A stretch of DNA of 64,000 nt, taken from positions 496,001 through 560,000 of the forward strand of contig NZ_CP035928.1 of NCBI RefSeq assembly GCF_004214795.1, written 5' to 3'. The DNA is from Malaciobacter pacificus (lineage in GTDB: Bacteria > Campylobacterota > Campylobacteria > Campylobacterales > Arcobacteraceae). This document shows, piece after piece, positions 1,336 to 5,174 of this stretch. The notes beneath the pieces were generated by a model. That model did not search any database and had not been told where the DNA came from. It saw nothing but the letters and a program-made list of their open reading frames with translations. Position 1 is the stretch's first letter; each line of letters begins with the position of its first letter. A program made the translations under genes and the position numbers.

Positions 1336-1364
1336 TTGACAAAAAAAATTTTATTAATTATACT
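1336..1364 (+). promoter_or_regulatory. Sigma-70 type promoter for the leuA leader transcript
   Basis: TTGACA (1336-1341) and TATACT (1359-1364) are separated by exactly 17 bp. This is unusually close to consensus for this group, where -35 boxes are often weak. Transcription would begin near 1371, just before a GGGAG ribosome site and the short leader ORF. Confidence 0.75.
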
Positions 1365-1395
1365 TGTATAACTTAAAAATAATAGGGAGAGTAAA

Positions 1396-1473
1396 ATGAA
1401 AATATTTAATTTTTATAATAACCATTTCATCAAAAGTGTTAATACTCTTCTATTGCTTAATTTTTCTCTCTAA
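1396..1473 (+). CDS. leuL: Candidate leucine leader peptide upstream of leuA
   Basis: A 25-codon ORF starts at ATG 1396, six bases after a GGGAG ribosome site, and ends at TAA 1471. Residues 18-21 are four leucines in a row, and the last residue is also leucine. The five leucine codons are CTT, CTA, TTG, CTT and CTC; none is TTA, the codon that dominates surrounding genes. A short, well-initiated ORF with a run of the end-product amino acid just before the committed-step gene is the hallmark of ribosome-mediated attenuation, as in enteric leu operons. What I see is promoter, ribosome site, ORF and leucine run. The regulatory role is inferred. It does not look like a gene for a folded protein. 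Confidence 0.75.
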   Translation: MKIFNFYNNHFIKSVNTLLLLNFSL

Positions 1474-1487
1474 TTACAATCGTAATT
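1472..1487 (+). terminator. Weak hairpin after the leader ORF, possible attenuator
   Basis: AATTAC (1472-1477) pairs with GTAATT (1482-1487) around a four-base loop and is followed by TTC. The stem is short and overlaps the leader stop codon, so a ribosome finishing the leader would cover it. It may be part of an attenuator, but the competing structure is not obvious by eye. Confidence 0.3.
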
Positions 1488-1539
1488 TTCTCAAAATAAT
1501 TTTAAACAAATTGTTGTATTTTTTTAATAAAAAATAGAA

Positions 1540-1545
1540 TATAAT
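1540..1545 (+). promoter_or_regulatory. Second -10 box close to leuA
   Basis: TATAAT at 1540-1545 lies 28 bases before the leuA start and follows a T-rich tract, the usual promoter style in this phylum. If active, it would give a leaderless-control transcript that bypasses the leader ORF. This leaves open how much leuA expression passes through the leader. Confidence 0.4.
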
Positions 1546-1573
1546 ATATACGTATAAATAAAAGGTAATAATA

Positions 1574-3127
1574 ATGGATAAGAATAAAATCATAGTTTTT
1601 GATACTACATTAAGAGATGGTGAACAATCTCCTGGTTGTTCAATGAATACTGAAGAAAAAATCAAAGTTGCATTACAGTTAGAAAAATTAGGTGTCGATG
1701 TTATTGAAGCAGGATTTGCAGCAGCAAGTCCAGGAGATTTTGATGCAGTTTCTAGAATAGCAGAGCAAGTGAAGAACTCTAGTATTTGTTCTTTAAGTAG
1801 AGCTGTTGAAAATGATATTAAGCAATCTGGATTAGCTGTTTCAAAAGCACCATTACATAGAATTCATACATTTATTGCAACTTCACCAATTCATATGAAA
1901 TATAAATTAAAAATGGAACCAGATGAAGTTATTAGAAGGGCAATTCATGCTGTACAATATGCAAAAACATTTGTTGATGATGTTGAGTTTTCTTTTGAAG
2001 ATGCAGGAAGATCTGAAATTTCATTTATGAAAGAAATGATGGATGCAGTTATTGATGCAGGTGCTTCAACTATTAATTTACCAGATACTGTTGGATACAG
2101 ATTACCACATGAATTAGGTGCAATGGTTAGAGAATTAACTGATTATGCTAATGATAGAGCGATTATTTCAGTTCATAACCACAATGACTTAGGATTAGCA
2201 ACAGCTAATACTTTAGCAGCAGTTGCTAATGGTGCTAGACAAATTGAGGTTACAATTAATGGTTTAGGTGAAAGAGCTGGAAACTCTGCTTTAGAAGAAG
2301 CAGTAATGGCTATTAAAACTAGAAAAGATGCATTTGGAGAGTTATATACTACAATTAACACTCCTGAGTTATATCCAACTTCAAGATTAGTTGCAACAAT
2401 TACAGGTGTTGAGCCACAACAAAATAAAGCAATTGTTGGTAAAAATGCATTTGCACATGAAAGTGGTATTCATCAAGATGGTGTATTAAAACATCAAGAA
2501 ACATATGAAATTATGAGACCTGAAGATGTAGGTGTATTTAAAGACTCTACATTAATCTTAGGAAAACATAGTGGAAGAGCAGCATTTAAAGATAAAATTG
2601 CTCATTTAGGATTTGATAAAGTTAGTGATGCTGAATTAAACTCTGCATTTGAAAGATTTAAAATCTTAGCTGATAAGAAAAAAGAGATTACTGATGATGA
2701 TGTAAGAATGTTAATTACAGATGAAGCTTTAAACTCTGGAAAAACTTATGAGCTAGTTGGATTACAGATTTCTGATTGTTCAAATGGTATGCCAATGGCG
2801 GCAGTTTCTATTAAAAAAGATAATGAAGTTATTCAAGATGCGGCAATTGGTGATGGTACAATGGATGCCATCTTTAAAACTATAGATAGATTAACAGGAA
2901 TTAGCGGTGAACTAAATGACTATAAAGTAATTTCTGTAACTGAAGGAAAAGATGCATTAGCTAAAGTTACTACAAGAGTAACATTTGATGAAAATGCTCC
3001 ATCATTTGTAGGTCATGGATTAAGTATTGATACTATGTTAGCAACTGCGAAAGCTTACTTAGGATCTGTTAATTCATACCTTTCTCAAAAAGAGAGACTT
3101 TCTAAAAAAACAGAACACCAAGTATAA
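1574..3127 (+). CDS. leuA: 2-isopropylmalate synthase
   Basis: Condenses acetyl-CoA with 2-oxoisovalerate, the first committed step of leucine synthesis, in the cytosol. The 517-residue length matches the long LeuA form. The N-terminal TIM barrel carries [11 protein letters not shown] near residue 11 and the metal-binding HNHNDLGLA near 202. The C-terminal part, about 390-500, is the regulatory domain that binds leucine (with GDGTMDAIF). Feedback inhibition by leucine is therefore expected, in addition to the possible leader control. ATG 1574 is preceded by AAAGG at 1561-1565. No other leu gene follows, so leuBCD must lie elsewhere. Confidence 0.97.
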
Positions 3128-3191: not shown

Positions 3192-5174
3192 TTGCTACAA
3201 TTCTATTTCTTTTTAAAATTATTAAAAGAATCATTTAGGGATTTAATCCCAATTATAATCGTTATTTTATTTTTCCAACTTGCAATTATTCAAGCTGTCC
3301 CAGATGGATGGGTTAGTACTGCAATTGGATTAGGTATTGTTGGTGTTGGTTTAGCTATATTTTTACAAGGTTTAGAAATAGGAGTTTTCCCTGTAGGAGA
3401 GGGATTAGCTCGTGATTTTGCTAAATCAGGCTGGACTGCATGGATATTAATTTTTGGATTTTTAATAGGTTTTGGTACTACAATTGCAGAACCAGCACTT
3501 GCTGTTATTGCAGATAAAGCAGCATCCATTTCAAGTGGTCGTATTGATGCTACATGGTTAAGAATAGTTGTTGCTTTATCAGTTGGTTTTGCTATTTTAT
3601 TAGGTGTTTTTAGAATTATTAAGGGTCATCCTATACACTATTATATTATTGCAGGATATATTTTAGTTGTAGGAGTTACTTTTTTTGCACCTCAAGAAAT
3701 TATAGGTCTTGCATATGATTTAGGGGGAGTTACAACTTCAACTGTAACAGTTCCTTTAGTTGCAGCTCTTGGTATAGGTTTAGCTTCTTCAATAAAAGGA
3801 AGAAATCCTGTTATTGATGGCTTTGGACTTATCGCTTTTGCTTCTCTAACTCCTATGATTTTTGTACAAATTTATGGAATAGCAGTTTATAATTTGGTTG
3901 ATGCAAAAGATGTTGCTGAAGTAGTAGTTCAAGCAACTGTTTCAACTACAGCAGCGATAACTCCACAATCACTTTTAATGGGTATTTATAATGTTGCAAA
4001 AGATGTACTGCCTATTATTTTAATTATTTTATTCTTTCAATATGTTGTTGTTAAAAAGCCAATAGAAAATATTAAAACAGTATTTTTTGGATTTTTTTTA
4101 GTAATTTTAGGACTTGATGCATTTATTCTTGGTTTAGAAATGGGTCTTTTCTCACTTGGTGAGACAATGGCTTACCAACTTACAAAATCATCTTCTGTTA
4201 TGATGATTTATGCATTCGCTTTTGCAATTGGTTTTTCTACTACTATGGCAGAGCCAGCACTTATGGCAATTGCTAAAAAAGCTAAAGAGATTAGTGATGG
4301 TAAGATAAATGATTTTGCTTTAAGACTTTTTGTAGCTGCTGGTGTTGCAATTGGTATTGCTTTAGGTGCATTTAGAATTGTTGATGGTGGGCATATTCAC
4401 TACTATATTATTGTTGGATATATTGTTGTTATAGTATTAACTTTTATTGCTCCAAAATATATTATTCCAATTGCATATGATAGTGGTGGAGTTACAACTT
4501 CAACTGTAACAGTTCCTTTAGTTGCAGCCCTTGGTATTGGACTTGCTACAAATATTGAAGGAAGAAGTCCTTTAATTGATGGATTTGGTCTTATTGCCTT
4601 TGCTTCACTTTTCCCTATGATTACAGTTATGTTATATGGAATAATAACAGAAAAACTTGGCGTTAAATCTGATACTCAAATTGAAAAAGAAGAGTTATTA
4701 CATGATACATTAAGTGATGCAGAAAACATGGATTTATCAACTGTTAATATTGATGGATCTAAAGTTAGACACTCTTTATCTTTACAGTTTAGTGCTGTTG
4801 TAATAATAGTTCCTGAAGATAAAAGAGATGAAGCTATCCAAGCGGCACATAGTGCAGGTGCTAGTGGAGTTACTGTTTTAAATGCACATGGTATTGGACT
4901 TGAAGGTATTGCAAATTTCTATAGAACATCATTTGAAGCAACAGATGTAATGCTTTTATTTTTATTGCCACAACATATGGTAAATGATGTAATAAAATCA
5001 ATTATCCATTCACTTCATATTACAACAACAGGAAAAGGTATTGCATTTGCCTTTCCTCTGTCTCATATGAAAGGAATATCTTTAACAAAAGAGGATATAT
5101 TCAAAGATAAAGCATATGAAGTAGATATAAATAAAAAATCGGAAAATAATCTTGCACAAAATTCAAAATCTTAA
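3192..5174 (+). CDS. Double DUF1538 membrane protein fused to a PII-like domain
   Basis: Integral membrane protein of 660 residues, probably a transporter of unknown substrate. Two homologous DUF1538 halves (about 5-245 and 270-500) each contain the same signature, [17 protein letters not shown], near residues 178 and 432. Each also has a (T)T(I/M)AEPAL motif in a hydrophobic helix. Residues about 530-640 are soluble and resemble PII signalling proteins ([20 protein letters not shown], then a GATGVT-like [11 protein letters not shown]). The start is TTG 3192, chosen because AAGGAG lies eight bases upstream; no ATG fits as well. It leads a + strand run through 9891. The PII fusion suggests transport gated by an effector nucleotide or metabolite, which is inference. 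Confidence 0.85.

Follow-up and report, generated by a model that had tools for sequence, protein, structure and literature searches.

The leuA upstream region of Malaciobacter pacificus

The DNA considered here, referred to as the window, is a stretch of 64,000 nucleotides from Malaciobacter pacificus (Campylobacterota; Arcobacteraceae), covering positions 496,001 to 560,000 of the forward strand of contig NZ_CP035928.1 (assembly GCF_004214795.1). Near its start lies leuA (1574–3127), which encodes the 517-residue 2-isopropylmalate synthase, the enzyme of the first committed step of leucine synthesis. The subject of this article is the short open reading frame (ORF) that precedes leuA, a candidate leader gene, leuL, together with the elements that surround it. 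All of these are on the + strand.

The region begins with a promoter, P1 (1336–1364), in which TTGACA (1336–1341) and TATACT (1359–1364) are separated by a 17-bp spacer. P1 matches the consensus at 11 of 12 positions and is the top promoter-like site in the region. A Shine–Dalgarno (SD) sequence, AGGGAGAG (1384–1391), recognised from sequence and alignment, ends 4 nucleotides ahead of the ATG at 1396. The leader ORF (1396–1473) encodes the 25-residue peptide MKIFNFYNNHFIKSVNTLLLLNFSL, which has five leucines among its last eight residues, and its stop codon lies 100 nucleotides before leuA. Within the ORF, a peptide core, FIKSVN (codons 11–16; 1426–1443), stands just upstream of four leucine codons, CTT CTA TTG CTT (1447–1458), which would be the control codons. 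The ORF closes with CTC and the stop codon TAA (1468–1473).

Between leader and leuA lie an A/U-rich hairpin over the leader stop, H1 (AATTAC-AATC-GTAATT; 1472–1487), a C-rich, G-poor spacer (1474–1511), and an inverted repeat of a T-tract and an A-tract, H2 (TATTTTTT-TAAT-AAAAAATA; 1517–1536). These are followed by a P2-like −10 box, TATAAT (1540–1545), 28 nucleotides before leuA, and by the SD sequence of leuA itself, AAAGG (1561–1565; sequence and alignment). A preliminary description of this DNA, made from the letters alone, had pointed out the consensus promoter with its 17-bp spacing, the good ribosome site, the 25-codon ORF with four consecutive non-TTA leucine codons, and the second −10 box just before leuA. 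All of these are borne out here.

Conservation of the leader

The LeuA protein was used to fetch 80 leuA loci, and among the 25 closest whose upstream sequence was long enough, essentially all carry this leader, equally far from leuA. A profile built from 19 leaders (A1; threshold E<1e-3) matches 75 of 104 Arcobacteraceae species genomes, with one strong match per genome. The genomes that have no match belong mostly to a few genera, at least one of which has a different leucine-run leader (L239). The preliminary description had proposed aligning this region across Arcobacteraceae, with loss of the leader or its leucine run in relatives as grounds for rejection; both prove to be conserved.

Leader length, promoter, spacer and −10 box were compared across 76 distinct upstream regions, which come from related species, so the family counts given here are not of independent events. 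The leader is exactly 25 residues long in 70 of these loci, and its stop lies 87–124 nucleotides before leuA. Codons 19–21 are leucine in 66–69 of the 70 leaders at each position, and codon 18 is leucine in 59. The consensus of the leader SD sequence is AGGAGAG. P1 matches at least 11 of the 12 consensus positions in 73 of the 76 loci and keeps the 17-bp spacing in 74, while TATAAT is found 23–29 nucleotides before leuA in 75. Because leader, P1 and TATAAT are all conserved across the family, a chance origin of the leader locus is ruled out. Within the window, the leader is also the sole intergenic ORF of 12–40 residues that starts with ATG and has both a run of four leucines and an SD-like sequence. 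Such a run occurs in none of the 38 long ORFs of the window.

Leucine codon choice

The long ORFs of the window use TTA for 65% of their leucine codons, but neither the four codons of the leader run nor its final CTC is TTA, an outcome with a chance probability of about 0.005. The same avoidance is seen across the family. Among 261 run codons from 70 leaders, there are 154 CTT, 39 CTG, 30 CTC, 24 CTA, 9 TTG and only 5 TTA, whereas TTA makes up 88% of the leucine codons in leuA of the same loci. CTT is only moderately rare, at 20% of window leucine codons. The end of the ORF is more striking: the last codon of the 25-residue leaders is CTC in 70 of 70, followed by TAA in 69 of 70, and CTC is the rarest leucine codon in window ORFs (0.4%). 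In Sulfurovum-like leaders with a terminal leucine, CTC is that codon in 16 of 19.

The genome has two tRNA-Leu genes with the anticodon UAA, and one each with UAG, CAA and GAG. Consequently, the control codons are mostly served by single-copy transfer RNAs (tRNAs).

A leader probably responding to leucine supply

Conservation, coding constraint, codon bias and the positions of all the elements can be seen directly in this DNA and its relatives. Taken as sequence evidence, they suggest that 1396–1473 is leuL, a leader peptide gene that couples leuA expression to the supply of charged leucyl-tRNA, with a probability that we put at about 0.8. The leucine response itself, the termination and its type, the activity of P2 and the role of the core are what we infer in the scheme that follows.

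The first ORF on a transcript from P1 would end in leucines encoded by rare codons. With leucine plentiful, ribosomes would complete the leader and leave, exposing the pyrimidine-rich leucine run and the C-rich, G-poor spacer. This exposed region would allow transcription to stop before leuA, most likely through Rho. When charged tRNA-Leu is short, a ribosome would stall on the leucine codons and cover the region, H1 would form, and polymerase would run on into leuA. The core, which would lie in the upper exit tunnel at the time of the stall, may strengthen the pause. A basal transcript independent of leucine probably comes from P2.

We favour Rho here with modest confidence, since no intrinsic terminator can be recognised, the spacer is rich in C and poor in G, and the genome encodes Rho (a Rho domain match). 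The spacer of the window, a candidate Rho loading region on its composition, contains 5 C and 1 G in 38 nucleotides. Across the 76 loci the spacer averages 11.9% C and 2.2% G, with more C than G in 70, and it has no structure signal. With no intrinsic terminator apparent, the locus is a candidate for amino-acid attenuation based on Rho.

Selection on the peptide core

The leader shows the pattern of synonymous and nonsynonymous change of a translated ORF. The ratio of the two kinds of change (nonsynonymous to synonymous, pN/pS), computed throughout from one set of 24 species whose leuA is complete, is 0.187 for LeuA, 0.297 for leader codons 2–10, 0.037 for the FIKSVN core and 0.866 for codons 22–24. 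This last segment, the tail, is nearly neutral and serves as an internal control within the same peptide. Synonymous change in the core is high (pS 0.64), and together with the low ratio this indicates that the amino acids are conserved, and not the RNA.

A second class of leuA leader, GxIKxxKxLPKIEI[K/R]N-x-LL, occurs in several other families (L201–L270, e.g. L213, L223, L228). Of 299 genomes in the order, 78 have it, with one match each, and its LPKIEI[K/R]N core is invariant. The pN/pS of LPKIEIKN is 0.029, with synonymous change near saturation. Leaders with an SLLLPL-type end before leuA, possibly a third class, were seen in L218 and L219 (family f12), and leuA stands without a detectable leader in L234–L237 (family f14), L226, L238 and L240. 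The cores of the two main classes both lie within about 10 residues upstream of the leucine run, and both end in asparagine, either directly before the run or one residue earlier. This spacing would place the core in the upper exit tunnel while the leucine codons are decoded.

To our knowledge, textbook attenuators do not require conservation of such a peptide core. Neither the conservation of the core nor the invariant final CTC is accounted for by textbook attenuation. Both would accord with an arrest that depends on the nascent chain, in which the core (FIKSVN here, LPKIEI[K/R]N elsewhere) is needed for, or tunes, a pause at the leucine codons or at CTC-stop, as in TnaC, so that the leader senses more than codons. 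The near absence of amino-acid change in both cores, their common end in asparagine, the constant length of 25 residues and the invariant last codon all fit this explanation, but the cores might also be conserved because the peptide, or initiation, is constrained in another way, and we regard such an arrest as a tentative alternative. The broader proposal that LeuL of Campylobacterota is an arrest-type peptide, in which the core in the tunnel, the invariant CTC-stop, and Rho in place of an intrinsic terminator set the leucine response, is slightly more doubtful still. If true, it would describe a leader of a biosynthetic gene that joins tRNA sensing with nascent-chain sensing. Functional cores would also raise the more general possibility that amino-acid attenuators read the nascent chain in addition to codons.

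RNA structure between leader and leuA

Two sites show excess structure relative to shuffled sequences across the family: H1 over the leader stop, and H2, about 55–25 nucleotides before leuA. A z<-1 is reached by about 75% of the family at the H1 position and by 87% at the H2 position. The arms of H1 vary between species but stay complementary, and the hairpin is almost pure A/U. H2 is present throughout the family, its arms also differing yet complementary, and stands directly ahead of GATATAAT with no T run after it.

The conservation of H1 over the stop codon would suit a classical intrinsic attenuator, in which H1 or another hairpin acts as a weak terminator and a competing antiterminator is freed by the stalled ribosome. 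Sulfurovum-like relatives lend this some weight, having hairpins with G+C pairs and then T runs ahead of leuA (e.g. AAGCCAAATGGCTTTTT in L034). In Arcobacteraceae, however, H1 is usually followed by no T run, a scan of the window finds no intrinsic terminator and none is recognisable in the family's leader-leuA regions, and the T-tract close to leuA forms the 5' arm of H2 and is not preceded by a hairpin. Without such a terminator, textbook terminator/antiterminator attenuation is not shown, and an intrinsic mechanism here seems doubtful, on a par with nascent-chain arrest. Four of the Sulfurovum-like loci (L040, L047, L072, L075) have a nested inverted repeat, TCTAATTAATCC-GATATA-GGATAGAATTAGA, then a T run, upstream of leuA, and a second hairpin with a T run nearer the gene.

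These results qualify two claims of the preliminary description. The weak terminator that it placed over the leader stop exists as a hairpin, of −2.3 kcal/mol in the window, but the scan does not class it as an intrinsic terminator. Of the attenuation signature, control by a leucine-codon leader is strongly supported by the conserved ORF, SD sequence, P1 and leucine run and by the avoidance of TTA; the intrinsic terminator was not found. The accompanying caution that the mechanism may not be classical was well placed, given this lack and a proximal −10 box as conserved as the leader.

The proximal promoter box and the balance of evidence

TATAAT stands at a promoter-like distance from leuA in all but one of the 76 loci, and if P2 is active it would yield leuA messenger RNA that is free of the leader. 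P2 could even be the working promoter of leuA, with the P1 leader transcript mattering little or only interfering with P2. No obvious −35 match is apparent upstream of the box, though, and this explanation leaves the conserved leader, its SD sequence, P1, the codon bias and the peptide core unexplained, which makes it improbable. The idea that the T-tract/A-tract repeat with TATAAT is a common promoter type was rejected, as there are six matches in the genome, two of them overlapping at leuA, against three for a reversed control.

Several points nevertheless weigh against the interpretation of leuL as a leucine-responsive leader. The main weakness is the P2 box, whose conservation equals that of the leader: a share of leuA transcripts may therefore start beyond the leader, which could be irrelevant to much leuA expression. 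The case for Rho is one of composition, and H1 and H2 carry no assigned role. Lastly, pairing of the leader SD sequence with the leucine run, although dominant in the fold of the window, was rejected as a selected switch. Consensus folding of the leader gives no stable structure; the SD sequence may pair with the leucine run or the terminal CTCT, at low probability each, and set against random synonymous CTN codons the pairing with the run shows no advantage (25 of 68 better). The pairing is thus a by-product of CT-rich codons.

Selection at the amino-acid level might suggest that the product of the ORF is a free-standing small protein that has a function of its own, but this is very unlikely given the run of rare leucine codons, the nearly neutral tail, the fixed site before leuA and the roughly one strong match per genome.

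Genomic context

By eye, the neighbours of leuA are a response-regulator/PAS/GGDEF-like gene (58–1332) and a large membrane protein gene (3192–5174), and not leuBCD. Control of the entire leu pathway by the leader was rejected, since leuC sits elsewhere in the genome, after lspA. No leaders were seen upstream of trpE or of two genes for thiamine pyrophosphate enzymes (ilvB-like), so the leuA leader stands in a genome whose examined trpE and ilvB genes show no such element. An Rfam covariance-model search of 1000–2000 gave no credible match, only chance matches of small nucleolar RNA type.

Comparison with known systems

One system for comparison is the enteric leuL attenuator of the leu operon. 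The leuL of Escherichia coli carries a run of four leucines, and the likeness to the present leader lies in an ORF with such a run ahead of leuA. Outside the run the peptides look dissimilar, judged by eye only. The M. pacificus locus also differs in having no recognisable intrinsic terminator, a conserved proximal −10 box and a pure A/U hairpin over the stop. As in classical attenuators, the control codons are those of the end-product amino acid, leucine, whereas the intrinsic terminator expected between leader and structural gene was not found here.

TnaC, with its Rho-dependent termination, offers an analogy only. It shares a length of 24–25 residues, conserved residues before the stop, an invariant end and C-rich, G-poor RNA thereafter. 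It differs in sensing free tryptophan and controlling a catabolic operon, and it appears to have no sequence relation to the leader described here.

The closest counterpart is the LeuL of Epsilonproteobacteria. Dugar 2013, a paper on the Campylobacter jejuni transcriptome, does not mention the leader terms that we looked for. The name LeuL dates from 2013, when it was given to the C. jejuni peptide and leaders of this kind were predicted in most Epsilonproteobacteria with leu genes, in a genome survey that included three Arcobacter species (PMC3847290, main text). The same text has the C. jejuni LeuL RNA ending shortly past the leader stop. Translation of C. jejuni LeuL was shown by ribosome profiling (Ribo-seq) in 2025, in an article whose main text reports leaders found by tBLASTn mainly in Campylobacter (PMC11955535), a range that the present profile search extends. 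Given this prediction and translation, the Arcobacteraceae leader belongs to a kind already known, and the association mainly with enteric bacteria made in the preliminary description does not hold. We found no description of the FIKSVN and LPKIEI[K/R]N cores in the literature searched, and the main texts of PMC3847290 and PMC11955535 mention neither these cores nor the invariant CTC, H1, H2 or the P2 box. Both the LeuL of Epsilonproteobacteria and the present leader are ORFs of 20–35 residues directly upstream of leuA, with several C-terminal leucine codons that are rare for the genome. They differ in that leuA is part of leuABCD in C. jejuni and is not followed by leuBCD here, and in that a Campylobacter-like family member (L213) has a leader of the LPKIEIRN class while the present one is of the FIKSVN class. 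In Arcobacteraceae, outside the enteric bacteria, control of leuA by a leader with a leucine run would come close to a family-wide rule.
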